From positions 1 through 27,252 of IMG/VR virus record IMGVR_UViG_3300002134_000093: a stretch of 27,252 nucleotides of DNA. The stretch is one strand, 5' to 3'. Position numbers and translations under genes: made by a program. Of this stretch, positions 6,081-26,134 are shown one piece after another; positions within the stretch are counted from its first letter, which is position 1, and every line of letters begins with the position of its first letter. This stretch comes from a virus. Under the pieces are notes generated by a model. It was not told the origin of the DNA. It was given only the letters and a program-made list of their open reading frames with translations, and did no database searches.

Positions 6081-6490
6081 TGGCTATCAATGCAACTAAC
6101 ATAGCTCCAATAGATAGAATACCAAGCAAAGCAGTGGGTATTAGTATACCCTTTAATGGCCCTGCTGTTTTTAAGTCAAACTATACCACAAAAGATGCTA
6201 CTAGGAATAACCTAATAAACCTACTCCTTACCGGACCTAGAGAAAGACCCTTTAAGCCAGGCTTTGGAGCAGGCTTACAGACCTTTATCTTCGAGCAAAT
6301 GGGACAGAATAATATCGACGGAATTCAAGAGTATATTGAAGTTGAAATAGCAAGGTACTTTCCAAATATACAGGCAACTGTAGAGTTAAGAGCAGATCAA
6401 GCAAACAACTCCCTCTTTACTGTAATCAACTATACGATAACTAACACAGGAGTAACAGATACAATACAACTAAACCTAACCAATGGCTAA
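6080..6490 (+). CDS. gp25: Baseplate wedge protein gp25
   Basis: A 136-residue member of the GPW/gp25 family, close to the length of T4 gp25 (132). The hallmark is NLLLTGPRERPFKPGFGAGL (about 50-70), the loop and helix conserved in sheath-initiator and wedge proteins. It is followed by a helix with FEQM and a C-terminal beta strand pair (LFTVINYTITNTG). In contractile tails gp25 joins gp6 in the wedge core and nucleates the sheath. It lies immediately before gp6 with an 8-base overlap, the classic gp25-gp6 order. The start is in a TAATG overlap with the preceding gene, and no better start lies upstream. Confidence 0.93.
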   Translation: MAINATNIAPIDRIPSKAVGISIPFNGPAVFKSNYTTKDATRNNLINLLLTGPRERPFKPGFGAGLQTFIFEQMGQNNIDGIQEYIEVEIARYFPNIQATVELRADQANNSLFTVINYTITNTGVTDTIQLNLTNG

Positions 6491-8342
6491 CACGAAAGAT
6501 ATAAAATACTTCAATAGGGATTTCACAGGACTTAAAGACCTGCTAGTAGACTTTACTAAAACCTACTATCCAAACACCTATAACGACTTTTCACCTGCTT
6601 CACCGGGAATGATGGTTTTAGAGATGTCTGCCTATGTTGGAGATGTACTTTCCTTCTACTTAGATAATCAAATACAAGAAACCTTCGTACAGCATGCAAG
6701 ACAGACAGAAAGCATCTATAACCTAGCTTATATGTTAGGGTACAGACCGAAAGTTACAAAAACCTCAACTGTCGGCATTGACCTATACCAACAACTTCCT
6801 GCAAAACTAGTAGGAGTTAATTATGTGCCAGACTTCGACTACGCTCTCTTTATCTCAGAAAATACAGTAGTAAAGACCGATGCTCAAGGCATTAACTTCT
6901 TAATACAGGACCCGGTAGATTTTACAGTCTCAAGCTCATACGACCCTACAGAGGTAACAATATATCAAACTAGTGGAGGAGATCCACAGTATTACCTCCT
7001 TAAAAAAACAAGACAAGCGATATCTTCTGCTATACAGACTACAAGCTTTACCTTTAATACTCCAGAATCTTTCGCAACAGTATCTATAGCAGATACAAAC
7101 ATTATTAAAGTTCTAGATATAATAGATTCAGACGGGAATACGTGGTACGAAGTACCTTACCTAGGGCAGGAAATGATCTACAAATCATTAAAGAATACTA
7201 ACGTAGTTAATCCAAATACATTTACTGATGCAGATGCACCGTACTTACTTAAACTAGAAAAAGTATCTAAAAGATACGTAACGAGGTTTAAAGCTAATAA
7301 CACATTAGAGATTCAATTCGGGTCAGGAACTACAGGAGATGTAGATGAAAGCATAATACCTAATAGCAATAATGTAGGTCTAGGGTTACCTTTCGAACAA
7401 GTAAAACTATATACAGCATTTGACCCTACCAACTTCTTACAGACAGATACTTACGGTATAGCACCAGCTAACACAACCTTAACAGTACGTTACTTAACCG
7501 GAGGAGGTGTAGCTTCAAATGTAGATGCAGAATCAATCACCACAGTAGTGTCTACGGGAAATGCTAAGTTTCAAAATAGCAACCTTCCCACCATCACCTC
7601 GAATTACATATTCAGTACCTTAGCAATATCTAACCCTATAGCAGCTTCAGGCGGCGGGGATGGAGATACTATAGAGGAGATAAGACAAAATACACTGGTA
7701 GGTTTTCAATCTCAATTAAGAAACGTAACAACTAAAGATTACACAATAAGAGCATTATCAATGCCTTCTGATTATGGGTCAATAGCTAAGACATACGTAG
7801 AAGCCACTAAAGCAAGTGAAAACATATTACCGGGGGAATTACCTGCTACACTTACATTGTATATTTTAGGGTTTGATAGAGTTAAAAACTTAAATACAGT
7901 ATCCTCTACGGTAAAGAAGAACCTAAGCACATACCTTTCTGAATATAGGATAATAGGGGATACCGTTACCATTAAGGACGGGTTTGTTGTAAACATCGGA
8001 ATAGACTTCGAGATCATAATACTTCCCAACTTTAATAGCAGTGAAGTTATAAGCAGATGTATAACAGAACTACAATCTTATTTTAATATAGATAATAGAA
8101 CATTTAACCAGCCGATACTTTTAAAAGAGTTATACATTAACTTAGATAAGATAAATGGAGTTCAAACTGTTAAAGATATTCAAATCACAAATAAAACAGG
8201 AGTATCCTTAGGATATTCGGAATACGCATACGATATAACAGGTGCTACACAAGATAACATTATATATCCGTCACTTGACCCATGTGTATTTGAAGTAAAA
8301 TATCCAAATACAGATATAAGGGGAAGAGCAGTATCGTTATAA
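6483..8342 (+). CDS. gp6: Baseplate wedge protein gp6 (baseplate J-like)
   Basis: A 619-residue gp6-type wedge protein (T4 gp6 is 660). The N-terminal signature reads MVLEMSAYVGDVLSFYLDNQ, then QETFVQHARQTESIYNLAYMLGYRP, which is strongly conserved in gp6/gpJ families. The middle is a beta-rich domain (about 100-360). It contains GGGDGDTIEEIRQN (about 390-405) and the ALSMPSDYGSIAKTYV segment of the baseplate J core. The C-terminal domain (about 500-619) forms the dimerisation part in T4. gp6 dimers make the ring that holds the baseplate together and drives its change of state at infection. It overlaps gp25 by 8 bases, so the two are translated together. Confidence 0.93.
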   Translation: MANTKDIKYFNRDFTGLKDLLVDFTKTYYPNTYNDFSPASPGMMVLEMSAYVGDVLSFYLDNQIQETFVQHARQTESIYNLAYMLGYRPKVTKTSTVGIDLYQQLPAKLVGVNYVPDFDYALFISENTVVKTDAQGINFLIQDPVDFTVSSSYDPTEVTIYQTSGGDPQYYLLKKTRQAISSAIQTTSFTFNTPESFATVSIADTNIIKVLDIIDSDGNTWYEVPYLGQEMIYKSLKNTNVVNPNTFTDADAPYLLKLEKVSKRYVTRFKANNTLEIQFGSGTTGDVDESIIPNSNNVGLGLPFEQVKLYTAFDPTNFLQTDTYGIAPANTTLTVRYLTGGGVASNVDAESITTVVSTGNAKFQNSNLPTITSNYIFSTLAISNPIAASGGGDGDTIEEIRQNTLVGFQSQLRNVTTKDYTIRALSMPSDYGSIAKTYVEATKASENILPGELPATLTLYILGFDRVKNLNTVSSTVKKNLSTYLSEYRIIGDTVTIKDGFVVNIGIDFEIIILPNFNSSEVISRCITELQSYFNIDNRTFNQPILLKELYINLDKINGVQTVKDIQITNKTGVSLGYSEYAYDITGATQDNIIYPSLDPCVFEVKYPNTDIRGRAVSL

Positions 8343-9506: not shown

Positions 9507-9870
9507 GAATATTAATATACAGGTAGTAAATTATAATAAAGAACAGTTTGGAAAAGCTGTAAATACTCAATTCACTCAATTTGGAGTTACAGCAGTAACA
9601 GTAGAAACTCCTTCTGACACTATTGATATTCCCGGATTCTTCACTGCATACGATAGACTATTCTTAGAGATACCTAAAAGTGGAGAGATAAACTCTCATC
9701 AATACTTAGCGAATAAGAGCGGGGAGTACGCCGGCGGAGCGGATATAAGTGCGGAAGTACAAGCATTAACTGCAGAGGTAACTCAATTGAGAGAAGAGAA
9801 CTTATCATTACAGGGACAGGTAATAGAGTTAGCTAACACGACAGCAGTATTAGCAAAAAGCATAAGATAA
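9499..9870 (+). CDS. Small virion protein with C-terminal coiled coil
   Basis: A 123-residue protein that I do not recognise. The first 70 residues look beta-rich and globular (INIQVVNYNK, FTQFGVTAVTVETP, IDIPGFFTAYDRLFLEI). A glycine-rich hinge (GEYAGGADIS) leads to a clear coiled coil (about 86-123) with heptads VQALTAEVTQLREENLSLQG, which suggests a trimeric or dimeric connector. It overlaps the preceding gene by 8 bases and the following one by 1 base (TAATG). This tight coupling with two baseplate/fibre proteins points to a shared assembly. It could be an accessory factor for the 1037-residue protein that follows. Confidence 0.72.
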   Translation: MSENINIQVVNYNKEQFGKAVNTQFTQFGVTAVTVETPSDTIDIPGFFTAYDRLFLEIPKSGEINSHQYLANKSGEYAGGADISAEVQALTAEVTQLREENLSLQGQVIELANTTAVLAKSIR

Positions 9871-12800
9871 TGGCAGAACCAATAGTAACATCACTAGGCA
9901 CAAGCACTTTAGATAATACAACAGTAAGTACACTGCTCCCTACAGATGGAGCTAATGTAGGAAGTTTTGAAGTAGCTGGAGTTTTTGATCCCACCACTGA
10001 CATAATTCAAGCATACCTATACGACTTTAACAACACTTTCATATCAAGACTAACCACCTCCTATAATGTTACAGAAACAGATCCTACATCAGGGATCACT
10101 TCTATAAGCATAGACCCGGGAAGAGATTTAACAGTAAACGGGTACACTCAAGGGAGGTACAATACACAATACAACTTTATAGCTCCTTTAATTAAGAGTA
10201 ACCCAAACCTATTCATATCCGAGATATCTTTAGACAGGACAGAACTTAAAGTAAATAGCAGTAACTTAGTAGAAATACAGCTAAGAGCAATATACGAGCA
10301 ATTACAGACAGGGCTTACATCAAGTACCTCCTTTGCAGGATTGTACTTAGACTTTGGATCTAATCAAATACAACTAGCAGTTAATGTAGGATTTGAGGAC
10401 GGTACACTTCTTCTGAAACTATATCAACCTCTACCTACTACATTCGGAAGAAGTTCAAACTTCAACCTAGTAGAGAAAGTATCAGATTCAAATACCTTTA
10501 GCGTAATATATCCAGCTGAAGAAGTGCAAATGCCAAAAGGAAAAACCTTAAGAGGTCCTAACTTTAACCTTAAAACAAGCACACAGACAAACACTACTAC
10601 CGAATATCAGACATACACAAGTTTAACAACAGCTTCAGCGGCTGGAATGACAAATAGACTGCAAAGTGTATTAGCGGAAAATAGAGCAGAATTGAATACA
10701 GACTATAAAGACTATGAAAACTTTATATTCTTTAGCTCAGCTGAAACAAGATTAACAAACTTCAACTATAAAGCAACCCTTCTAGAATCATACACAAGCG
10801 CAATAAACACCTTAGACGGGCTCACCAACACACCCGCTACAGAGTTATCATCTAGTAAAGCATTCTACGAGAATGAGATAGATAGTATCACTCGAAACTT
10901 CGATGGATATGATTACCACCTCTACTATGAAAGCGGATCTACAGCATGGCCGAAGCAAAATGCCTCACCGCCATACATACCGTACTCTTATAGCTCCTCA
11001 GTAGCAACAAACTGGCTTACCGAACAATCCGGTATCGCCATCTTATATGACAATAATAATAGGAATAACTTATATAATATATTCCCTACCTACATAATAG
11101 ATGACGAAAGTAATGCACAATTCAAACTCTTTACAGAGTTAACTGCTCAAATGTTTGATGAAATCTGGTTATATACGGATGCATTAAAAAATAGACAAGA
11201 TGCAGATAACAGCTTAAGCGGAGGTATTTCAACCGACTTAGTTGCCGATGCGCTAAAATCTTACGGTATTGATTTATATGAAAGTAGCTTCACTAACGGA
11301 GATCTATTCACTTCTCTACTAGGAATAACAGAAGCAGGAGGAACTCTACCTTCAACAGGAAGTGAAGTAATAACTACATATGTAACCTCCTCCGCAGAAA
11401 CTATACCTTTTAATGATGCTCAAAAGCTAATCTACAAGAGACTCTACCATAACCTACCATACCTGCTTAAAAAGAAAGGAACAACATCAGGCTTAAGAGT
11501 ACTTCTAAACTGCTTCGGTATACCAGATACAGTATTAAGAATCTCTGAATTTGGAGGGAAAGATAAAAACACAAACACTTGGGACTACTGGTATAACGAA
11601 TTTAACTACTCTTTTAATACATCAGGATCAGGGTACATAAGTACACCCTGGGAAGGTGGAGCATTTGTGAGTACCTGGGGAGCAGCCAGCCCAATAGAAT
11701 TACCTTTAGTATCAGGGAGCGTATATAATATGACTGTAGATTGGGGAGATGGAACACCTATCGATACAATAACAGCTTGGGATGATGTATTAAAGACACA
11801 CAACTACGCGGTATCCGGATACTACGATATTACAATAAGAGGTACAATAGGAGGTTTCGCATTCAACAATACAGGATATAAATCTAGCATTACAGATATA
11901 AAAGAATTTGGACCTTTAGAACTAAGTACAAGTGCTTCTTTCTACGGAACCAACCTATTAGGATTAACATCTGCGAATTATAACCTAACCGCTATAGACG
12001 ATCCCGCTATATCCACAACAACATTAAAAGATACTTTTAGAGGAGCCTCGATAGTTAAAGGAAATTTCTCTAACTGGAGAATACAAAACGTTACTAGTCT
12101 GGAAAATACCTTTAGAGATGCAGAAGATTTTGATAGTCCTTTGACAGATTGGGACGTTTCCAACGTAACTACTCTAAAAAGTACATTCGAAGGAGCTGCT
12201 GCATTTAACCAACCCCTAAACTGGGATACCTCAGGAGTAACAACCTTTAATAGTATGTTTAAAAGCGCTTCTGCTTTCAACTCCCCGCTAGGTTTCGATA
12301 CAGTCTCTGGAACTAACTTTGCATACATGTTCAATGACGCTATCGCATTTAATCAAGATATCGGATCATTTAACATGGAAAACGCAACAGATATAAGTTA
12401 TATGCTGAAAGGAGCCACATCATTCAACCTTCCCCTTCTGAACTGGAATAACAATAGTTTTCAGACCACATCAAATACATTTGCAGGAACTAGACTATTC
12501 AACCAGAACTTAGGAGGATGGGATATGACTGCTGTAAGCAATACTAGCAATATGTTTGCTGAAGCTGTATCATATAATAATCAAGGAACAGATTTAAACA
12601 CCTGGGACTTACTCGGCGTTACGAACGCTTCCGGAATGTTCTACTCTGCCTCTGCTTTCAACCAGTCTTTAGCCTGGAACACTTTAACGTCTTTGCAGAA
12701 TGCAGATGAGATGTTCTATAATGCAGCAGCATTCAACCAAGATATATCAAGCATGCCTATACAAAACCTACAGACTGCATGGAAGATGCTAGATGGTACA

Positions 12801-12983
12801 AGCTTTAGTCAAACCAACTACGATACTTTACTAGTCACATGGGCAGCCCTCTCACCCATACCACCAAACATATCCTTTAGCGCAGCAGATACTAACTACA
12901 CAATAGCGACTAGTCAGATCGCGAGAAACGTATTGACTGGTGGACCTAATAATTGGTACATAGTAGATAAAGGAGGATTATAG
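9870..12983 (+). CDS. Large baseplate/fibre protein with PKD and BspA/DUF285 repeats
   Basis: A 1037-residue mosaic. Residues 1-594 form the phage part: beta-rich to about 230, then mixed helical, ending with LYHNLPYLLKKKGTTSG and LLNCFGIPDTVLRISEFGG. I recall that segment as highly conserved in large tail proteins of related phages (memory, unchecked). From about 595 the character changes. A PKD-like domain follows (VDWGDGT at 623-629, then THNYAVSGYYDITI). After it come about eleven 25-residue BspA/DUF285 repeats (from about 718; core MFxxAxxFNQ, W, VT). A typical cap ends the protein (YDTLLVTWAAL, then NNWYIVDKGG). PKD and BspA modules are surface adhesion parts in Bacteroidetes and mycoplasmas. 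Here they probably form a host-recognition tip. The protein ends where its expected downstream half begins as a separate gene. Confidence 0.82.
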   Translation: MAEPIVTSLGTSTLDNTTVSTLLPTDGANVGSFEVAGVFDPTTDIIQAYLYDFNNTFISRLTTSYNVTETDPTSGITSISIDPGRDLTVNGYTQGRYNTQYNFIAPLIKSNPNLFISEISLDRTELKVNSSNLVEIQLRAIYEQLQTGLTSSTSFAGLYLDFGSNQIQLAVNVGFEDGTLLLKLYQPLPTTFGRSSNFNLVEKVSDSNTFSVIYPAEEVQMPKGKTLRGPNFNLKTSTQTNTTTEYQTYTSLTTASAAGMTNRLQSVLAENRAELNTDYKDYENFIFFSSAETRLTNFNYKATLLESYTSAINTLDGLTNTPATELSSSKAFYENEIDSITRNFDGYDYHLYYESGSTAWPKQNASPPYIPYSYSSSVATNWLTEQSGIAILYDNNNRNNLYNIFPTYIIDDESNAQFKLFTELTAQMFDEIWLYTDALKNRQDADNSLSGGISTDLVADALKSYGIDLYESSFTNGDLFTSLLGITEAGGTLPSTGSEVITTYVTSSAETIPFNDAQKLIYKRLYHNLPYLLKKKGTTSGLRVLLNCFGIPDTVLRISEFGGKDKNTNTWDYWYNEFNYSFNTSGSGYISTPWEGGAFVSTWGAASPIELPLVSGSVYNMTVDWGDGTPIDTITAWDDVLKTHNYAVSGYYDITIRGTIGGFAFNNTGYKSSITDIKEFGPLELSTSASFYGTNLLGLTSANYNLTAIDDPAISTTTLKDTFRGASIVKGNFSNWRIQNVTSLENTFRDAEDFDSPLTDWDVSNVTTLKSTFEGAAAFNQPLNWDTSGVTTFNSMFKSASAFNSPLGFDTVSGTNFAYMFNDAIAFNQDIGSFNMENATDISYMLKGATSFNLPLLNWNNNSFQTTSNTFAGTRLFNQNLGGWDMTAVSNTSNMFAEAVSYNNQGTDLNTWDLLGVTNASGMFYSASAFNQSLAWNTLTSLQNADEMFYNAAAFNQDISSMPIQNLQTAWKMLDGTSFSQTNYDTLLVTWAALSPIPPNISFSAADTNYTIATSQIARNVLTGGPNNWYIVDKGGL
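12021..12830 (+). repeat. BspA/DUF285-type tandem protein repeats
   Basis: About eleven degenerate units of roughly 75 bases code for 24-28 residue repeats. The clearest are STFEGAAAFNQPLNWDTSGV, SMFKSASAFNSPLGFDT, NMFAEAVSYNN and GMFYSASAFNQSLAWNT. The conserved positions are Met/Thr-Phe, Ala, Ala-Phe-Asn-Gln and a Trp/Phe-Asp/Asn pair. The DNA copies are too diverged to be recent slippage products. The unit pattern matches the DUF285 (mycoplasma/BspA-like) leucine-rich-like repeat family, which is known from secreted bacterial surface proteins. Confidence 0.85.
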
Positions 12984-12991
12984 TATTAAAC

Positions 12992-12999
12992 TATTTATA
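12992..12999 (+). promoter_or_regulatory. TATTTATA box, candidate late promoter
   Basis: An exact TATTTATA in the 20-base gap ends 4 bases (ATAA) before the ATG at 13004. It would give the downstream half of the apparently split tail protein its own transcription or translation start. It shares spacing with the boxes at 5718, 8370 and 20631. Confidence 0.45.
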
Positions 13000-13003
13000 A
13001 TAA

Positions 13004-15772
13004 ATGCCAAAAGCAAAGAGTATACAATTTAGGTTTAAATCGCCAGTAGCTTCAATAAGCACACCCCCCTCCCAGTCTCTACTTGTAAGTATAGACAACT
13101 CAGACTATACTCAATTTGCAGCAGTACTAGAACATACCATAGCAGCAACCAGCGGATCCTACTCAGGCTCAATAATCAATCCGGACAGCGTATATGGGAC
13201 TTTAAAATTTATACACGAAGATATAGCCTTATCTGCCAGTATTGAATTACCTTTCCTAAATGGAGAATGGTGGTCTACAATGATAACTCAAGAGACGATT
13301 AGCGGAGGTTATAGTTATACAATATATGCAGGGAGTAAAGTCTACGATGGTGTAGACGGAAACACAGTCGGCTTTCAAGCTTCTGCATCATTCACCGGTT
13401 CTTTAGACTGGAAAAGAGTGGCTAATAACTACCTTCCCGGTTCCGGTTCTAGAGATGTACTAGGAGAAACCTATATACCTTTCACAGGGTCAGTACAGGA
13501 GTTAAGATATTTCTCAACCGTAGTAACAGAAGATCAGTTTAGAGATTACGTTCAAGATTCTAATTCAATAGAAGGAAGTAGTGGATTGTTCTTTAGAGCA
13601 GCATTAGGAGGAGAGTTATTTACAGCATCAAGTTCAATCCATCCAAGAGCAGGAGGATTCGGAAAAGTTAACTCCTTTACCTCCGGGAACGGATTTACTA
13701 TTGTAAGCGGAAGCTTTACACCTAACTACGAAATCGCTCTAGTAGATCAAGTACTAAGCGGGGTACGTAATAGAGTATCAGACAAGATAAAACAAGGTAA
13801 CTTAGTAATGCCTTCAAACTCGACAGAGTTTAGCAATATACCAATAGGTAGTGTATTATCATCTACCACATCATTGCAGCAAAGATTACAAGTAAGCCAG
13901 AGTTTCTCTAGAGATGTTAACTACTTAGAAGTAGCACTATCACCCCAGAATGAAATAAATGATGATATAAACGCAACATATGGCTACTTTAACATAGGGG
14001 AATATATAGGAGACCCGGTAAATTATACATCAACAGCAACAACCTACCCTTTATTAGAGAATTTAAAAAATTCATACTTTATTAAGTATAACACTGGATA
14101 TAACTTAAAGGACTATATAAGATTATCAAAATACTACGACAATGCAGTATTTCAGATGATAAAAGATTTCGTTCCAGTAAGAGCAGGAATAGCTACAGGA
14201 GTAGTTATAAAACAACATTTACTAGAGCGTAATAGAGTTAGACCTGCACAAGTATCCTATGAGGATCTACTATTAACAGGTTCAATCAAACCCCAGTCAA
14301 GAGGGTATGAAGAAGGAACTATTGAAGTATTCTCTGGAGGTCCGGGAGGATCTGTAAATAGTTTAGTAGGGCCGAATCAAGCCTGGACTGCTTCTTACAA
14401 CTCCCCTATAGGACTTGTAACACAAGTAGAATCCTCTCAATACGAATTTTATAACGGAGAATATTCCGGGTCTGTAATAACAGCTCAAATCTCATATTCA
14501 CTCAACGAAGAACCATTACTGAATAATGTATCTGCTGCAAGACTCTCTACATTCTACGAAGATGTAGACTACTCAACATCTGTAAGTACACCAGTAAACC
14601 TAGACTTAATACTCTCCGGCTCTGCAATTAAAGCATCAGTACCGGATTCAAATTACACTTCTTTAAGGAGCATAACACCTAGGTATTTAGGAAGTAAAAA
14701 CACAGGAGAAGTAAACTACAGTCAATCCTTCTCACCAGTTACAGTAGCAGCAGGCTATCCAGTAGATAGTAAGACACCTTGGTTTGCATTCTTTAACGGA
14801 ATATACAACTCTGTAGAGCTAGGGTCTGGAGTAGGAGGGAGCGTCAACGTATCCGCCCTTATAAATGCAGAAACATCCGATGTAATTACATTAACTAGTG
14901 ATAATCAAAATATTGATTTCCTAGGACAGCTCTTTAAGAACGGAGACTTCCCTGCAATAATACCCGCACTAGCGGATATTATATTAGAAGGACAGGTAGA
15001 AGTCCAAGCAGCAGGAGAAATATACCAAACTATTTTAATGAAGTCCGGAAGCATAGGCACCGGTTATCAAGGAACCTACTATCCTTCCGGAGCACTGTCA
15101 TTTAACTACTCAAGCCCTAGCCAATCTCCAGAAAACTTCTACGCTGGAGTAGGGATGACTCAATCGTATGTAGGATCTGATACCTACATCTACGGATATA
15201 ATAGAACAACCTCCCCCGTATACGAGGCAGGTTGGATGGCTTTCTTAACTGCAGACCCTGCAGGAATAGGCGCTGCTAACTTCCCTAGCACTGTACAAGG
15301 TTTAGGTAACATATACATATACAATAAATCTTCAGGCTCGTATTCACAGGAATACCTCTCAACTATTAAAGACACATACTTCCCAATCAAACCCACAGAC
15401 TTTATAAGAGTCGGCTCTAGCGCTTCGATAGATATACCGCAACGTGGTGGGGAAGCAACACTCTCCTCTCTTGAAGTATTAGGACAACTAAAGACTATAG
15501 AGTGGGGTGGATTTAACTCCCCAGCCCCTAACACAGGACAAGCTAGTGCAAGTGTTGTTGCTCCTTTCGAAAACGATGAAGGTTTCGCTAATATAAACAA
15601 CCAATCCTTTAGGGTAATTCGAAGAGTTCCTTCTGAATTCTATGTACTAGTAAAGACTAAACCGAACGCATTCACAGGAGAAGGACTCCTCCTACCGCAT
15701 AACTTCGATACCACATACGATGCTAGACAAGTCGCAACAACTCTAGGATTTATAAAAAAGACTCAACTTTAA
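13004..15772 (+). CDS. LamG-like large baseplate/fibre protein
   Basis: A 922-residue beta-rich virion protein. Residues about 1-200 resemble a concanavalin-like LamG fold: SIQFRFKSP, SVYGTLKFI, LPFLNGEWWSTMI, FTGSVQELRYFS, and FRAALGG at the end. Such domains bind sugars or protein partners. A helical segment (about 365-410) contains SYFIKYNTGYNLKDYIRLSK and FQMIKDFVPVRAG, probably the part that anchors it in the baseplate. The rest is Ser/Gly/Tyr-rich beta structure with a C-terminal domain (RVIRRVPSEFYVLVKTKP). The protein starts abruptly at the first LamG strand, with no leader of its own. That suggests it was once fused to the end of residue ~594 of the preceding gene. A TATTTATA box precedes it. 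It is probably part of the host-contact apparatus. Confidence 0.78.
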   Translation: MPKAKSIQFRFKSPVASISTPPSQSLLVSIDNSDYTQFAAVLEHTIAATSGSYSGSIINPDSVYGTLKFIHEDIALSASIELPFLNGEWWSTMITQETISGGYSYTIYAGSKVYDGVDGNTVGFQASASFTGSLDWKRVANNYLPGSGSRDVLGETYIPFTGSVQELRYFSTVVTEDQFRDYVQDSNSIEGSSGLFFRAALGGELFTASSSIHPRAGGFGKVNSFTSGNGFTIVSGSFTPNYEIALVDQVLSGVRNRVSDKIKQGNLVMPSNSTEFSNIPIGSVLSSTTSLQQRLQVSQSFSRDVNYLEVALSPQNEINDDINATYGYFNIGEYIGDPVNYTSTATTYPLLENLKNSYFIKYNTGYNLKDYIRLSKYYDNAVFQMIKDFVPVRAGIATGVVIKQHLLERNRVRPAQVSYEDLLLTGSIKPQSRGYEEGTIEVFSGGPGGSVNSLVGPNQAWTASYNSPIGLVTQVESSQYEFYNGEYSGSVITAQISYSLNEEPLLNNVSAARLSTFYEDVDYSTSVSTPVNLDLILSGSAIKASVPDSNYTSLRSITPRYLGSKNTGEVNYSQSFSPVTVAAGYPVDSKTPWFAFFNGIYNSVELGSGVGGSVNVSALINAETSDVITLTSDNQNIDFLGQLFKNGDFPAIIPALADIILEGQVEVQAAGEIYQTILMKSGSIGTGYQGTYYPSGALSFNYSSPSQSPENFYAGVGMTQSYVGSDTYIYGYNRTTSPVYEAGWMAFLTADPAGIGAANFPSTVQGLGNIYIYNKSSGSYSQEYLSTIKDTYFPIKPTDFIRVGSSASIDIPQRGGEATLSSLEVLGQLKTIEWGGFNSPAPNTGQASASVVAPFENDEGFANINNQSFRVIRRVPSEFYVLVKTKPNAFTGEGLLLPHNFDTTYDARQVATTLGFIKKTQL

Positions 15773-18912: not shown

Positions 18913-19839
18913 ATGGTAAATCACCTACTTGTTAACCTAGTCGATAGTGTACTGGGAAAAGGTAAAGCTACTTCTGGCGATAACCAATCTTATCCGTGTC
19001 CTTTTTGTAATCACCGTAAGAACAAGTTAGAGATTAATTTTCAAGAAAACGAAGAAGGTATTAATCACTGGCATTGCTGGGTATGTAATGCAAGAGGTAA
19101 GTCAATCGCTAGTCTTTTTAAGAAAGTATCCGCTCCTGCTAGTAAAATGCAAGAGTTAAAGAGTTACGTAAAGATTTCTTTTCATGAGAATACAAAAAAT
19201 CAAGAGGAAATAGTAGAGCTTCCTAAAGAATACAAATCCCTAATAGATCCAGACACTAATGACGTAACAACTAGGCAAGCTTTACGTTACCTTAAGCAAA
19301 GAAATATAGGGCCTGTAGAAATAAAAAGATACGAGTTAGGGTTCTGTGCTTCAGGAAGATATAAAGATATGATAATAATGCCTTCATACACAGAAGAAGG
19401 TACTTTAAACTACTTCGTAGGTCGAAACTTCGGACCTTCGGACTATAAATACAAGAATCCAAAAGTAAGTAAAGACATATTACCTTTAGGACTTCATGTA
19501 AATTGGGAATCTCCTCTAATAATATGTGAAGGAATGTTTGACGCTATAGCAATTAAGCGTAACGCTATACCTTTACTAGGAAAAACAATACCTAAGAAAC
19601 TTATGCACAAGATTGTAGAATCTAGTGTTAAGCAGATTTTTATTGCTCTCGATAATGATGCTCTAAAGCAAGCATTTGAATACTGTGAGACCTTTCTAAA
19701 CCATGGAAAAGAGGTGTTTTTAATCGAATTGAACGACAAAGATCCTTCCGAGCTTGGCTTTGAGGAGTTTACCAAACTATTACATAGAAGTACACCAATG
19801 ACCTTTAGGACTCTCCTAGAGAAGAAATTTGAACTATGA
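18913..19839 (+). CDS. DNA primase, T4 gp61-like
   Basis: A 308-residue bacterial-type primase that makes RNA primers for lagging-strand synthesis at the phage fork. The CHC2-like zinc ribbon is seen as C29-x2-C32 (CPFCNHRKNKLEIN) and C55-x2-C58 (HWHCWVCNARG). The Toprim catalytic core shows E206-G207 with D210 (IICEGMFDAIA) and D247-N-D249 (IALDNDA), the metal-binding acidic residues. The length is near that of T4 gp61 (342) and no helicase domain is fused, so the helicase should be a separate gene outside this window. A 24-base gap without a TATTTATA box precedes it, in keeping with an early gene, and the stop overlaps the nuclease start (ATGA). Confidence 0.9.
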   Translation: MVNHLLVNLVDSVLGKGKATSGDNQSYPCPFCNHRKNKLEINFQENEEGINHWHCWVCNARGKSIASLFKKVSAPASKMQELKSYVKISFHENTKNQEEIVELPKEYKSLIDPDTNDVTTRQALRYLKQRNIGPVEIKRYELGFCASGRYKDMIIMPSYTEEGTLNYFVGRNFGPSDYKYKNPKVSKDILPLGLHVNWESPLIICEGMFDAIAIKRNAIPLLGKTIPKKLMHKIVESSVKQIFIALDNDALKQAFEYCETFLNHGKEVFLIELNDKDPSELGFEEFTKLLHRSTPMTFRTLLEKKFEL

Positions 19840-20630
19840 TTGAACAAAACAAAGACATTAAGAAAGATGCATTCGTCAAAAGGCTAATACATCCCGACTC
19901 TACCGCTCGTCAAATTACTTTGACTGATAGTAGATTCTACCAAAGAGACAAGGAAACCTATTATCCTTCTGTAACAACTGTACTCTCCTACTTTCCGAAA
20001 GGAAAATTCTTTGAGAGCTGGCTGAAAGATGTAGGAGCAAACGCAGATGTAATAATGCGAAGAGCGGGAAATGAGGGCACACAAGTGCATGAGGCTATCG
20101 AAGCGTACCTAAAAGGAGAAGAAATCCATTGGCTAGACCAATGGGGTAAAACTAAGTATAGCCTGCTCGTATGGAAAATGATCTTAAAGTTCGTAGACTT
20201 CTGGGAAACATACAAACCAACGTTAGTAGAATCAGAAGTACATGTATTCTCAGACGAATTAAAAATAGCAGGAACAGCAGATTTAATCCTAGAAATAGAC
20301 GGAGAGCTTTGGATGGTAGATATTAAGACCTCTAATTACCTCCATGATACTTACGACTTCCAACTCGCATGTTATACACAAGGATGGAATGAGTGTTTTG
20401 AAAGACCTATTGAGAGAATGGGCATACTATGGCTAAAAGCTTCGACTAGAGGAGAAAGTAAGAAGAAAGATATAATACAAGGAAAAGGATGGCAATTAAA
20501 AGAAGCAGATACACCTTTTGAGGAGTGTAAAAGGATCTTTAAACACCTTTATGAGATATTCTTAATAAAACAACCAAACCTAAAACCAGTAACAGAAGAA
20601 CTTCCTACAAGTATTAAGCTAAAAGTGTGA
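19836..20630 (+). CDS. RecB/Cas4-like PD-(D/E)XK nuclease
   Basis: A 264-residue nuclease of the PD-(D/E)XK superfamily. The visible core motifs are GTQVHEAIEAYL (H85, E86), AGTADLIL (D149), WMVDIKTS (D162-x-K164) and the QLACYTQG helix after the core. This is the motif order of RecB-C-terminal and Cas4-type exonucleases. Phage members process DNA ends in recombination or replication. No iron-sulphur cysteine cluster is evident, so a plain RecB-type enzyme is more likely than Cas4. It overlaps the primase by 4 bases, which indicates a replication or repair role. The N-terminal 45 residues include SVTTVLSYFPKGKFFESWL, also typical of this phage subfamily. Confidence 0.87.
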   Translation: MIEQNKDIKKDAFVKRLIHPDSTARQITLTDSRFYQRDKETYYPSVTTVLSYFPKGKFFESWLKDVGANADVIMRRAGNEGTQVHEAIEAYLKGEEIHWLDQWGKTKYSLLVWKMILKFVDFWETYKPTLVESEVHVFSDELKIAGTADLILEIDGELWMVDIKTSNYLHDTYDFQLACYTQGWNECFERPIERMGILWLKASTRGESKKKDIIQGKGWQLKEADTPFEECKRIFKHLYEIFLIKQPNLKPVTEELPTSIKLKV

Positions 20631-20642: not shown

Positions 20643-21611
20643 ATGATTAGACTAACTGCCCTACTTAGAGAACTTATCACTGAAGGAGGTAATGTATTTG
20701 GTACTACTGCTCCTATAGCAAAGGATAAAATTGAACCTACTCTAGAGAAATTTGTAGAAGAGTTAAGTAAGGTATTTCCCAACAAAGCTAGTACTTTTAA
20801 CTCTTTTGAGAAATTAGGATCTGCAGGTAAGAAAGATATGTCCGGGGATATAGATATTGCCTACTCAGTTGACCATCTAACTAAAGATGGAAAACCGGAT
20901 TTAGCAGGGTGGACTTTAGATGAAGCTAAATTTAACGACTATTTTGAACGTATAAGGAAAAGAGCTAGAACGGCTTCTGAAACTCAATCCAAATTAAAAG
21001 CAATGCTTACATTGATAGCGGAGAAGATTAATGAGAAGAGTACACTACTAAAGGCTGACCCTAAATCAGCAGGCTCAAATTCTCTATTCTTAGAATTTCC
21101 CCAATATGGAGTAGACGGCGAGAAACAATCCGAACTGATACAAGTAGATATAAATGTAGGAGATCCAGAATGGCTAAAATTCAGTTACTATTCTAACATC
21201 TACAAAGGAGTCGTAAAAGGCTTACATAGAACACAACTTATGCTCGCATTATTTACCGCGAAAGGTAAAATGTTCAAACATGAACAAGGAGTATTGGACA
21301 AGGAGACGAGAGAGGTAGAAGCTTCAACACCTAAAGAAGCTTTAGCGCTTTTAAATAAACTCTACAGCATTGAATTAACTCAAGACCAGTTAAACGACTA
21401 CTTTGAACTATCAGATGCTTTAGAAAAAGGACTCTCTAAAGAAGATTACGGAAAGGTGATGGATATTTACTTAGGAATTCTAGATAAAACCGGGCCTTAT
21501 GCACACGTTCCTGAAAATTTAGAAGCTTATTGGATAGCAAATCAAGAAAGATTAGGCTTAACAGGTAAAAGGTTACCAGACGATTCAAACCTTAAAAAAT
21601 ACGCAAAATAA
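20643..21611 (+). CDS. Pol-beta-type nucleotidyltransferase, possible head-targeted protein
   Basis: A 322-residue protein with a nucleotidyltransferase core. G59-S60 is followed by D69-x-D71 (KLGSAGKKDMSGDIDIAYS), and a later strand supplies the probable third acid (IQVDINVGD). These are the metal-binding residues of the pol-beta/NTase superfamily, which transfers nucleotides to RNA, proteins or small molecules; the acceptor is unknown. The N-terminus MIRLTALLRELITEGG has ITE followed by GG, fitting the T4 capsid-targeting peptide cut by prohead protease. The C-terminal half is helical and ends KRLPDDSNLKKY. It shares one base with the next gene (TAATG), whose N-terminal domain is a second, diverged NTase. 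Delivery in the head is inference. Confidence 0.78.
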   Translation: MIRLTALLRELITEGGNVFGTTAPIAKDKIEPTLEKFVEELSKVFPNKASTFNSFEKLGSAGKKDMSGDIDIAYSVDHLTKDGKPDLAGWTLDEAKFNDYFERIRKRARTASETQSKLKAMLTLIAEKINEKSTLLKADPKSAGSNSLFLEFPQYGVDGEKQSELIQVDINVGDPEWLKFSYYSNIYKGVVKGLHRTQLMLALFTAKGKMFKHEQGVLDKETREVEASTPKEALALLNKLYSIELTQDQLNDYFELSDALEKGLSKEDYGKVMDIYLGILDKTGPYAHVPENLEAYWIANQERLGLTGKRLPDDSNLKKYAK

Positions 21612-24600
21612 TGTCAGGAGCAGCAGGAGGAGGGAGAATACCTAGATCAGCAGTCGAACAGACAGTAAAAGATTATAGTGAGAAGATACTATCTAAGATA
21701 GAAGGCTTCAAAGATGCTAAATTATCTGGATCCTTTAATAGACCGGATAAAGAAGACTTTGGAGATATTGATATTATAGTAACTATCGAAACAGGAGAGG
21801 ATAAAAAAACTGTTAAACAGAAAATAGCAACCCTCTTTCAAAGCCTACCAGACAGTGAACTACCGCCCCTGCAAAATCCTAAATATAAAGGTAAGAAATT
21901 TATAAATCACGGAGAGATGGTATCGAATTTATACCCTATCTCAGGAATGCCAGGAGAATATGTGCAGATCGATAACATTATCTCATTATCAGCAGAGGAA
22001 GGAGATTTTAAGAAAACAATTCTCGACTACCCTGCAGAACTTCAAGGACTAATACTAGGACTAGTAAAAGTTCCTTTACTAGAAGAGGATCCAAAAAAAG
22101 TATTCTCCAGGCTAGGTATAGATAATATACCAGAACCGAAAGAAGATCAAGAGTACGAATTCCACATAGATACATCAGGACTAACTTTGAGGCTAGTAAC
22201 CTACGGAGGTAATTATAAGATACTAGATAGCAATATAGTATGGCAATCTAGAAGCTTTGACGATGTAAGAACACTTCTTAAAGATTTTAACCTAGACGGA
22301 ACCTTTGAAGACCTTATGCAACAGCTACAAGGGCTAAAGAATGAACGATCTAAGAACAGAGTAAAAGGTTATTTTGCAAAATCTATAAAAGTTGGAGCAG
22401 CAGAACAAGGAACTCCTAAAGGAGATTCAAAACAAAATGCCTTAGACGCTGTAAGCATGTTGGAGGAAAATAGGAGAATATTATCACGAGCTAAGTTAAT
22501 GACTAAGTTCTTAGATGAAGACGAAAAACCTAGAATAGCAGTATTCCCCGGAGCTTTTAAACCTCCGCATAGAGACCATGTAGGTCGAATCCTAGCAGCA
22601 GCAAACAAGGTTGGAGAGGACGGTAAAGTATTAGTCTTAATATCCCCTCTAGATAGAGCTAAAGAAGGAGAGGAGCCTATATCTGCAAAACAAGCAGCAG
22701 CTGTATTTGAACTGTATAAGGAAAAAGGAATAATACCTTTAAATGTAACTGTTAGAGTATCAGAGATGAACTCCCCGATAGGTGCAGCTTATAAAGAATT
22801 TGAAAGCGACCCAACACAGCCCTACATAGCAGTATTCGGAAAAGATGATGCATCTAGGTACCGAAACATAGAAGATAGGCTCCCTAATGTAACACCTGAT
22901 AGTTTTGAAGACGCTAACGTAGGAGACATCTCCGCAAGTGACCTGAGAAAAGCTATAGCACAGAGAGATAAAGAAGTAATCACCAGGTATCTACCTACAG
23001 GAATTACTGCTGATGAGTACTTAAATACTCTAGGAATAGATAAACCTTTAGATGAAGGAGATATAGAATCTGCAGCAGACTTATGGACCCCGCATGCATC
23101 TATGCTAGCTAAGATGAGGAAAGAGCCTGAACTCCTCAAAGGACTGTGGAAGGGACTTTCAAAACCCTCTAGGAGAGCATTAGTACTTTACTTTAGAAGA
23201 GAGAAGCAGCGAGAAGCAGCAGCACCTCTAGAAGAAGCAGCTGAAACTGTAAAAGAGGCTCAAGGGAAAAAGTTAAGAGTGTTTGACTTCGACGATACTT
23301 TAGTTCATGTAGATGCTACAATATACATTACACATGAAGATGGTTCCAAAGAAGGACTAACTCCTGCAGAGTATGCAGTGTATGAGCCTCAACCGGGAGA
23401 TAAGTTCAACTTCAAAGAGTTTAGTTCTGTTATAAAAAAGGCAAAGCCTTTAGAAGATAACATACAAGATCTAATCAAATCCTACAACGACCCTACAGAG
23501 AAGACTACGATTTTAACTGCAAGGCTTTTAGGATACCCGGTTAAAAAGTACTTACGGGATGAGTTTAACATCGAACCTTACGTAGTAGGGCTAGGTTCAA
23601 GCGATCCTCAAGACAAAGCAAAATGGATTGAAGACCAGATAAAGAAAGGATACACCACTATAGAGTTTAGAGATGATTCTGCTAAAAACGTTGACGCTGT
23701 AGCAGCTCTACAGGATAAACATCCAGAAATAACACTCACATCTATATTGATAAAGGAAAATGCTTCATATTCTAGCGATATAGATTACAAAGGAAAGATA
23801 TTAGAGCTTACTAAGCATATGCTACGTAAAGGAATGAATATCAAACCTCTACCTAAAGTTAAATTCGTAAACGGTGACAGCGATAATGCAAGACAGTTCT
23901 TAGGGAAAACAGCATATTATGATCCGAATAATAAAACAATAGTACTTTATACAGAAGGTAGACACCCTAAAGACATAGTACGTTCCTTTGCTCATGAGAT
24001 GGTACATCACACCCAAAACCTAGAAAACAGATTAGGTGATGTTTCAACTACAAATACAATGGAGGATAGCAACATTGATAAGCTTGAACAAGAAGCTAAT
24101 CTAAAAGGTACAATGACATTCAGAAATTGGACTGATAGTTTAAATGAAAATATATTTCAAAAATCACTAGATCAAACAGAGAAAGAAGCCCTTGAAATAA
24201 CATATAAAAATTGGGATACCTTCGGAGGAAAAGAATGTAATAACGGGTTCTGTGATATCTTCGCTAAGAACTTAGCAAAACACCTCCCGGGATCTAAAAT
24301 ACTGAGCACAGAAGACCCGAGAAACGAAACATTAGGTCACGTATGGGTTGAATATGAAGGTAAGTACTTCGATGCCGAAACCCCTGATGGAGTATCTTCC
24401 TGGAAAGACCTACCCTGGATGAAAGAGTTCTATTCTAAAGTTAGAAGCTACCCTACTGACATCGAAACCTTAAACGAAGTAGGCGAAGCAAATCTTAAAC
24501 CGTATAAATGGCAAGAGGTAGATAGAGAAGGGTATTCTATTTACGTAAGATTCGAAACAGAATCTGAAACTACATATTCTGTAGACTTAAGTACAGACAA

Positions 24601-26134
24601 ATATAAAGAGACACCAGTCTTCCTTATAGAATTTTCAGCTAAAACTAAAGAGCACCAGGGTTCATCATCTAGAGTAGTAGTTAATAAAGGTGAAATGTAC
24701 AGAGTGATGTCTACTCTAACAGATATCATTAAAACATACTTAAAGAAATTTAAAAAAGTTAAAGGTATCGTATATTATCCTTCTAAAAAAGGAAATGAAG
24801 AATTCGGTACACAACGAGATAACCTTTACAGGGCATTTATTATAAAAGCAATACCGGGTATAAAATTTGAACCCGTCAATACTGCACTGTACGGTGACGG
24901 TATAGTTGCATTAATGCCAGATACAGTAGTTAAGGAAATAGTAACAGGGACATTCAGAAATTGGACTGATAGTTTAAATGAAAGTACAACGACCAATTCT
25001 TACCCATTTAAAGTTACGGATAAGACTTATGATGACGAAGATAATTCACTAATCACAGTTTCATATGAATTAACAACCCCGGACAATTCCTATAGAGTTG
25101 AATTTTATTCTGGAGAACATAGACCTGAAGCAAAAACATTTGATCTATCATTCGGTGTAAATACAGGAGACTTAAATACAATCGATACCTTTCAAATGAC
25201 AGGTGAAGGGAATGCTAGAAAAATATTTAAAACTATCCTTAATATCGTAGAAGATTTTATAAATAAAGAAGATGTTAAGAAAATAGTAGTAGATGGAACT
25301 GATGAAAAACGTAAAAGAATTTATAAAGCTATTTTTTCATCTACACCACCGAACATATATGATAAGATTGAGCTTAAAGAAGCTAAAAATAAAGACCCAT
25401 TTGGCCTAAACCAATATGCTCGTGAATTAGCTCAAGGATTAGAAGAAACAATAGTTATGGAAGGACGATACGATACAATAAGCAATCAAATATCCTCAGA
25501 GATATTTAACAACTGGAAAGCACAGTTCGACAAAAACAACACTACAGAGGAAGCGCTCTTTACAAAGAGTTATGACTTAGAAAACGCAGCAGGACGTCCT
25601 ATTGTATTTGATTTAGTAGCAAGCTTAACCTTCAAAGAAACAGAAGAAGGAACCTATAGCGTAAACGGCGATGCCGATGAGGGAGACGAGGAAATATACG
25701 ATTCAGATGGAGAGTTAGAAGACGAAGGCTTAGACGGCAGCATCTCCATGTATTTCCAAGTGGATCCCCGAGAGCTACCTCGACTCTGGTCTAAGATATC
25801 AATGGACCTAAAAGACATTGTCAGACACGAAATAGAACATTTAACTCAAGCAGGTTATAATGTAGTAGACTCTAAGAGACTTCCTGATGATAGAATGCTT
25901 AGGATGTATATACAGGACTTAAAAACGATGCCTGAAAGAGATTACTACCTTTTAGATAAGGAAATACCGGCAATGTTGCAAGGAATGTATTTTAAAGCTA
26001 AAAAAATGAAAGCGCCTTTTGCAAAAGTAGTGAACGATTACTTAACTATACAAAAAGTTTCTGATGAAGATAGAGAAATAATACTTAATCGTTGGAGACC
26101 TGCAGCAAAAACCTTAAATTTACCAAACTTATAA
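21611..26134 (+). CDS. Giant multi-enzyme protein, possible head-packaged polyprotein
   Basis: One uninterrupted 1507-residue frame. Visible modules in order: NTase (1-165; G40-S41, D52-x-D54); basic linker (about 235-275); NMNAT-like adenylyltransferase (306-475; GAFKPPHRDH with H320/H323, ISASDLR at 440-446); HAD phosphatase (553-715; D559-F-D561-D-T, TAR, DD); zincin 1 (720-835; HEMVH at 795-799, possible third ligand E828); a Cys/His/Asp hydrolase or transglutaminase-like domain (848-950; C876 or C881, H910, D921); unknown domain copy a (964-1093); copy b (1131-1255); zincin 2 (1285-1507; HEIEH at 1406-1410, possible ligand E1451). (L/I)xE sites fall at several borders: LDE303, LEE542, IKE, LNE956, LNE1124, LKE. 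These fit T4-type prohead protease processing, but such triplets are common by chance. Substrates and processing are unproven. Confidence 0.8.
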   Translation: MSGAAGGGRIPRSAVEQTVKDYSEKILSKIEGFKDAKLSGSFNRPDKEDFGDIDIIVTIETGEDKKTVKQKIATLFQSLPDSELPPLQNPKYKGKKFINHGEMVSNLYPISGMPGEYVQIDNIISLSAEEGDFKKTILDYPAELQGLILGLVKVPLLEEDPKKVFSRLGIDNIPEPKEDQEYEFHIDTSGLTLRLVTYGGNYKILDSNIVWQSRSFDDVRTLLKDFNLDGTFEDLMQQLQGLKNERSKNRVKGYFAKSIKVGAAEQGTPKGDSKQNALDAVSMLEENRRILSRAKLMTKFLDEDEKPRIAVFPGAFKPPHRDHVGRILAAANKVGEDGKVLVLISPLDRAKEGEEPISAKQAAAVFELYKEKGIIPLNVTVRVSEMNSPIGAAYKEFESDPTQPYIAVFGKDDASRYRNIEDRLPNVTPDSFEDANVGDISASDLRKAIAQRDKEVITRYLPTGITADEYLNTLGIDKPLDEGDIESAADLWTPHASMLAKMRKEPELLKGLWKGLSKPSRRALVLYFRREKQREAAAPLEEAAETVKEAQGKKLRVFDFDDTLVHVDATIYITHEDGSKEGLTPAEYAVYEPQPGDKFNFKEFSSVIKKAKPLEDNIQDLIKSYNDPTEKTTILTARLLGYPVKKYLRDEFNIEPYVVGLGSSDPQDKAKWIEDQIKKGYTTIEFRDDSAKNVDAVAALQDKHPEITLTSILIKENASYSSDIDYKGKILELTKHMLRKGMNIKPLPKVKFVNGDSDNARQFLGKTAYYDPNNKTIVLYTEGRHPKDIVRSFAHEMVHHTQNLENRLGDVSTTNTMEDSNIDKLEQEANLKGTMTFRNWTDSLNENIFQKSLDQTEKEALEITYKNWDTFGGKECNNGFCDIFAKNLAKHLPGSKILSTEDPRNETLGHVWVEYEGKYFDAETPDGVSSWKDLPWMKEFYSKVRSYPTDIETLNEVGEANLKPYKWQEVDREGYSIYVRFETESETTYSVDLSTDKYKETPVFLIEFSAKTKEHQGSSSRVVVNKGEMYRVMSTLTDIIKTYLKKFKKVKGIVYYPSKKGNEEFGTQRDNLYRAFIIKAIPGIKFEPVNTALYGDGIVALMPDTVVKEIVTGTFRNWTDSLNESTTTNSYPFKVTDKTYDDEDNSLITVSYELTTPDNSYRVEFYSGEHRPEAKTFDLSFGVNTGDLNTIDTFQMTGEGNARKIFKTILNIVEDFINKEDVKKIVVDGTDEKRKRIYKAIFSSTPPNIYDKIELKEAKNKDPFGLNQYARELAQGLEETIVMEGRYDTISNQISSEIFNNWKAQFDKNNTTEEALFTKSYDLENAAGRPIVFDLVASLTFKETEEGTYSVNGDADEGDEEIYDSDGELEDEGLDGSISMYFQVDPRELPRLWSKISMDLKDIVRHEIEHLTQAGYNVVDSKRLPDDRMLRMYIQDLKTMPERDYYLLDKEIPAMLQGMYFKAKKMKAPFAKVVNDYLTIQKVSDEDREIILNRWRPAAKTLNLPNL
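24115..24149 (+). repeat. 35-base direct repeat, copy 1
   Basis: An exact 35-base match to 24949-24983, same strand and same reading frame, coding for TFRNWTDSLNE at residues 836-846. The copy directly follows an ATG codon and the end of zincin 1. The start-to-start distance of 834 bases is exactly 278 codons. Nucleotide identity of this length inside diverged sequence suggests a recent duplication or recombination. Confidence 0.95.
24949..24983 (+). repeat. 35-base direct repeat, copy 2
   Basis: The second exact copy of the 35-base repeat, coding for TFRNWTDSLNE at residues 1114-1124. It sits between unknown domain copy a and copy b. Sequence on either side differs from that around copy 1, so identity stops sharply at both ends. 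Confidence 0.95.

Follow-up and report, generated by a model that had tools for sequence, protein, structure and literature searches.

A BspA-type adhesion module at a gene break inside a LamG-like domain in one lineage of uncultured phages

Receptor-module exchange between phages is well known. The locus described here raises the question of how a bacterial-style adhesion module came to lie inside a protein that is encoded by a single gene in most relatives, and how the cut in the gene is related to it. The window (the whole stretch of DNA analysed, i.e., the 27,252-base virus record IMGVR_UViG_3300002134_000093) contains two adjacent genes, for which the initial annotation, made from the letters alone, had proposed that a PKD plus BspA/DUF285 module with a stop, a TATTTATA box and a new ATG was inserted into a conserved tail protein just ahead of its LamG-like domain.

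The two genes and the adhesion module

The two ORFs are present as described, at 9870-12983 and 13004-15772 and 20 nt apart, with the following features:

9870..12983, + strand: protein 1 (1037 aa), made up of a conserved N part, a retained LamG hairpin and the BspA module (ORF, Pfam, relatives)
9870..11585, + strand: conserved N part, residues 1-572, homologous to the start of one-gene relatives (tblastn, alignment)
11586..11642, + strand: stretch on protein 1 matching LamG strands 1 and 2 of the fused protein L022, residues 573-591 (alignment, L022 model, fold comparison, immuto boundary)
11655..11939, + strand: PKD-like, beta-rich head of the module, residues 596-690 (sub-threshold Pfam PKD, model)
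11940..12824, + strand: BspA/DUF285 leucine-rich-repeat (LRR) solenoid, residues about 691-985 (Pfam PF03382, LRR fold matches)
12825..12983, + strand: cap that closes the module at the C-terminus, with the stop codon (sequence; L173 ends similarly)
12984..13003, + strand: 20-nt intergenic gap with TATTTATA at 12992-12999, 4 nt before the ATG
13004..15772, + strand: protein 2 (922 aa), made up of the remaining LamG, the core and a variable C part
13019..13846, + strand: LamG from strand 3 onward, protein 2 residues 6-281 (alignment, L022 model, immuto)
13847..14698, + strand: conserved core, protein 2 residues 282-565 (in the LamG-less immuto protein up to about residue 492)

A gene matching baseplate-wedge proteins is found at 6483-8342 and the protein 1 gene is located two genes downstream; this gene order suggests that proteins 1 and 2 are located in the tail. 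Protein 2 matched no named family in Pfam, NCBIfam or PHROGs, none of 20 N parts had a match in PHROGs, and the N-part profile had no match to PDB sequences up to E 0.1. Elsewhere in the window, a 1507-aa protein (21611-26134) has four Pfam matches along its length, two of them over the cut-off (DUF6934, 50.4 bits; DNA polymerase beta palm, 25.4 bits) and two under it (YunG-like and DUF2608). A Toprim/primase-like gene (18913-20630; Toprim_2 22.6 bits vs 22.1, other matches under cut-off) is followed by a PD-(D/E)XK nuclease gene (28.3 vs 22).

Protein 1 changes character as had been noted: it is conserved to about residue 594 and then continues into the head, four DUF285 stretches and the cap. 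The BspA repeats are well supported by PF03382 (266.4 bits against a cut-off of 25, in four stretches; whole-protein E 2.6e-80), and the module model has the LRR solenoid fold by its match to internalin InlF (4fmz, Z 14.3), a match to be read with the high rmsd (6.7 over 322) and the ease with which repeats give middling Z values. The description of the head as a complete PKD domain was too strong. We call it no more than PKD-like, because no Pfam PKD model reaches its cut-off (13.2 of 23.5 bits in the window; 19.9 of 27 bits in L018, the best of four heads). The head is predicted to be beta-rich (mean pLDDT 79-89 over residues 601-660, falling to 58-72 over residues 661-690). No row for the head by itself was seen in the PDB fold comparison, the list being filled by LRR chains, and the module had no match to PDB sequences up to E 0.1. 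In the fold search against viral models, the best rows were uncharacterised phage proteins of 756-1287 aa together with BspA proteins.

Among the window protein and its split relatives L009 and L012, pairwise identity is 63-71% in the head, 40-44% in the repeats and 31-51% in the cap, compared to 62-67% in the N part. The outer part of the module thus appears to change fastest, as would be expected of a receptor-binding surface, and a receptor-binding role is suggested by the kind of module and by this divergence. The G+C content of the module (0.38-0.40) is like that of its surroundings, and no tandem DNA repeat of repeat-unit size was found within it.

A genome scan with two short peptide patterns of the module detected one relative, in a Bdellovibrionales MAG (31%), and no bacterial donor of the module. 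The nearest head relative seen is a 591-aa Bdellovibrionales MAG protein (42% identity over 92 residues) in which head, DUF285 repeats and cap occur together and whose start resembles a lipoprotein signal by eye. The initial annotation was also right about the cap and stop at the end of protein 1; the order head-DUF285-cap-stop recurs in the Bdellovibrionales protein. In the phage collection two records match the head (36% and 34%). Other phage proteins carry the same repeat family at or near the C-terminus, with a head at most 36% identical among the matches listed. The BspA match ends 4 codons (stop included) before the gene end in OBP and LAh10, at the stop in PAU gp103, and 214-268 codons before the gene end, with more repeat matches beyond, in Survivor, pEt-SU, SXP01 and AH04. 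Horizontal spread has been argued for the BspA/DUF285 (PARCEL) repeat proteins that bacteria and jumbo phages carry (PMC2996958). The module of the window may have been captured, as a receptor module, from a bacterium.

The TATTTATA box ahead of protein 2 is real: it is found 4 nt before the ATG in all four complete split types (the window, L009, L011 and L012). Its count in the window, 10 on both strands vs 5.3 expected, does not exceed chance (6 of 100 shuffles reach 10), the window positions including 8370, 12992, 15783, 20631 and 26147. Its placement does, as far as counts on mechanical ORFs with homologous places counted repeatedly can tell: among 97 occurrences in 21 near contigs, 76 lie wholly outside ORFs, where 5.3% of the sequence lies, and the box ends exactly 4 nt (33 occurrences) or 7 nt (21 occurrences) before an ORF start. 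In the same contigs, 28 reverse-complement copies are present, two of them outside ORFs. In 104 more distant loci there are 394 occurrences, 227 of them outside ORFs (11.3% of the sequence) and 41 at 4 nt. TATTTATA therefore appears to be a recurrent, directional gene-start element of these phages and may act either as a promoter or in translation.

One-gene relatives and the position of the break

The check proposed with the initial annotation was a search for single proteins that align to both window proteins. L022 (1492 aa) and L023 (1510 aa) do so, with about 13 residues separating the protein 1 match from the protein 2 match; proteins 1 and 2 are collinear halves of one protein that is single in relatives, the pattern of gene fission. 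Relatives were collected by profile scan (best 80 of 577) and represent the nearest part of a larger family; a contig was scored as fused when a tblastn match to the C-part query lay in frame in the same ORF. Among 142 distinct contigs including the window, 123 are fused in one frame and six, representing four sequence types, are split; two more end inside BspA, ten end before the junction and one is unclear. All six split contigs contain the BspA module, and no BspA match at E 1e-6 was found in the stretch analysed in any of the 123 fused contigs. Homologues are accordingly neither always two genes nor always equipped with the BspA part, two findings that would have spoken against the proposal. 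Contigs were made distinct by name and by hand, so that near copies from different samples are still counted (L009/L010, L012/L013); L030, L041, L046 and L048 (C parts only) and L050 were outside the scoring.

The four complete split types have a gene gap of 20-26 nt. They differ at about one third of N-part residues, except for the close pair L009/L011, and the split contigs other than the window, five in number, stem from four IMG/VR data sets. In L008 (9783-9907) and L018 (9782-10368), which also belong to the split clade, the contig ends inside the BspA module, and the module may be variable within populations. The N part of L018 is also interrupted by a frame break, near residue 419.

Three phage records (L005, L006 and L007), fused by annotation or ORF, stand outside the count of 142. 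Flavobacterium phage immuto (gp109, L005, NC_055915; 1265 aa) and Microcystis phage Mel-JY01 (PP395634; 1336 aa) each encode in one gene an N-part homologue (35% and 27% identity, respectively) plus the core, with neither BspA module nor split. The entire LamG unit is also absent from immuto gp109, so that LamG itself looks like a removable module.

The exact position of the break differs from the one first proposed, in which SIQFRFKSP near the start of protein 2 was taken as the first LamG strand. This assignment is wrong, since two strands (residues 74-86 and 91-94) precede the strand matching SIQFRFKS (110-116) in the AlphaFold model of fused L022, where mean pLDDT is 72, 84, 96, 94 and 93 in the blocks from 71-80 to 111-120. 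The unsplit model has the LamG/pentraxin-like fold by whole-domain structural matches: the best is 4dqa (Z 17.3), and others include C-reactive protein (1lj7, Z 14.4, its residues 5-206) and laminin alpha-2 (1dyk, Z 13.2). In most pentraxin, PAPP-A and laminin-G rows the alignment begins at residue 78-80 of the model and extends to about 340-351. Immuto gp109 gives the same boundaries: N residue 575 or so is followed directly by C residue 282 or so. By alignment to L022, protein 1 thus appears to hold one part of the modelled LamG unit (its residues 573-591) and protein 2 the remainder (its residues 6-281); where strands 2 and 3 would be joined by a loop, the alignment has the module, the stop and the new start instead. 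The fold is that of pentraxins and laminin-G domains (1lj7, 1dyk; about 9-16% identity), but two genes encode the domain in the window.

Only five residues of protein 2 precede strand 3, so that the alignment contains no substitute hairpin ahead of that strand. The 19-residue hairpin left on protein 1 keeps TSGSGY and TPW in five of five split sequences. Its pairwise identity is 63-79%, with 3-7 of 12-15 identical codons differing silently; this conservation is no better than that of the N part (62-67% over 565 residues) or the head. For so short a stretch, the conservation together with the silent changes would speak for use rather than decay. In the protein 1 model the hairpin is unordered, as part of a poorly modelled stretch (420-595). 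Relative to the N part, LamG is slightly more diverged between split and near fused proteins (ratio 0.80) than in fused pairs (0.87), but the difference disappears against L015/L016 (0.86), so that these relative rates speak neither for nor against the reading.

Direction of change and competing explanations

A quick tree of 107 N parts (96 with a known state) gathers the split sequences into a single clade (SH-aLRT 100) that lies among fused clades and requires one change of state. More careful N-part and C-part trees of 30 chosen rows each recover the four complete split types as a clade with 100/100 support, and within it both trees pair the window with L012 and L009 with L011; the stem of this clade is 0.71 long in the C tree vs 0.39 in the N tree. 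Because the split clade is nested among fused sequences in the tree of each half, a single origin of the split, from fused to split, is the simplest reading, and the direction first suggested holds. As the same clade with the same order appears in both trees, the two halves most likely descended together from a fused ancestor. The proposal that the module was inserted at the junction together with the split stands in its association (6 of 6 split contigs, 0 of 123 fused) and falls in its exact place, which is inside LamG instead of ahead of it. The module may have arrived with the gene break or after it, since every split contig has the module.

Fission also occurs elsewhere in this gene. At a second junction, near protein 2 residues 492-505 (window 14477-14518), a split is seen in 22 of 69 scorable rows (counted without the window, L009, L011, L012 and L127), and the tree requires at least 10 changes; fission of the gene is therefore common. 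In most of 18 such loci inspected by eye, a short segment precedes the break and a new one begins with the next gene. The first junction is special in that the break lies inside a domain, is confined to one clade and is accompanied by the module in every case seen. At another variable spot, L011 and L012 carry about 130-140 extra residues at protein 2 residues about 721-740 (window 15164-15223), another variable module that the window and L009 do not have.

We consider it fairly probable that the module was planted in the LamG loop as a receptor arm, that the gene was broken there, and that the hairpin completes LamG in trans. The ancestor would have been one large protein encoded near the baseplate genes, consisting of the N part, a LamG/pentraxin-like domain, the core and a variable end. 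In one step or in close succession, the adhesion module (PKD-like head, BspA solenoid, cap and stop) would have replaced the loop that joins strands 2 and 3, with translation restarting at a new ATG just before strand 3. Both products would remain together in the tail, where the protein 1 hairpin would fill the LamG of protein 2 in trans and the solenoid would project outward from LamG as an additional receptor-binding arm that changes fast. The ends of a solenoid are far apart, so that a tight loop could accept one only where the chain does not have to return; this would explain why the gene break accompanies the solenoid. More tentatively, the split LamG could serve as a joint, the break letting a distant-ended solenoid enter a tight beta-sandwich loop, and this could be a general route for phages to acquire receptor arms for which an in-frame insertion leaves no room.

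The fission could also be real with the hairpin now a mere linker, protein 2 folding alone as a trimmed LamG and the two proteins not needing to touch each other. This is a serious possibility, consistent with the unordered hairpin of the protein 1 model and with hairpin conservation that does not exceed that of its surroundings, but the invariance of TSGSGY and TPW in the split sequences argues against it, and in fused L022 the two strands belong to a domain that aligns to whole pentraxins. It is rather unlikely that a stop and new start in the LamG loop came first and the module was added later to the C-terminus of protein 1. Since fission without the module is common at the second junction, this order of events has a precedent within the gene, and BspA modules are located at or near the C-terminus of other phage proteins; all six split contigs nevertheless have the module, no intermediate was seen, and a LamG break without gain would be expected to be harmful.

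Three further explanations were rejected. Ancestral two-gene architecture, with the fused proteins arising by fusion and module loss, could appeal only to the general frequency of gene fusion in phages and is very improbable, as the split clade is nested among fused ones with one change and the cultured outgroups immuto and Mel-JY01 have one gene. The gap of just 20-26 nt might suggest that a programmed frameshift or readthrough still yields one product; in all four complete types, however, an in-frame stop lies within two codons before the protein 2 ATG, so that an upstream shift cannot read into protein 2, and we give this explanation almost no credence. An assembly or chimera artefact could be suspected from L008 and L018, which end inside the module, and from the frame break of L018, but the whole arrangement is repeated in six contigs of diverged types, those other than the window coming from four data sets, and an artefact is next to impossible.

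Known systems and significance

Among the closest known systems is the branched lateral tail fibre of the T5-like phages DT57C and DT571/2, made of LtfA and LtfB where T5 has one protein (PMC4728585). There too two tail-fibre proteins occur where relatives have one, one of them attached through the other. Both are said to carry receptor-recognition domains, LtfB lacks homologues among T5 proteins and the likeness of LtfA to T5 Ltf is confined to the N-terminal part; a gene was added in DT57C and DT571/2, whereas the proteins described here, from uncultured phages, are the two collinear halves into which a single ancestral protein was cut within a domain. PMC3118219 mentions an event in a tape measure gene, either fission or fusion, that was left unresolved. 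Among the matches listed for the open-licence PMC literature, no paper describing a BspA module that splits a tail gene was seen.

In the lineage described, which consists of uncultured phages, an adhesion module of bacterial style appears to lie inside a tail-region protein that is single elsewhere, with the gene cut at that place. The fused form, the derived split form and a LamG-less outgroup stand side by side, and gain of the module and gene fission are thereby polarised, not guessed. If the hairpin works in trans, the divided LamG would be a natural split-protein joint, and the notion that a gene break frees a phage from the geometry imposed on inserted domains would be open to direct test. 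The locus is probably a clear natural example of a phage gaining a probable receptor-binding arm by breaking a gene.
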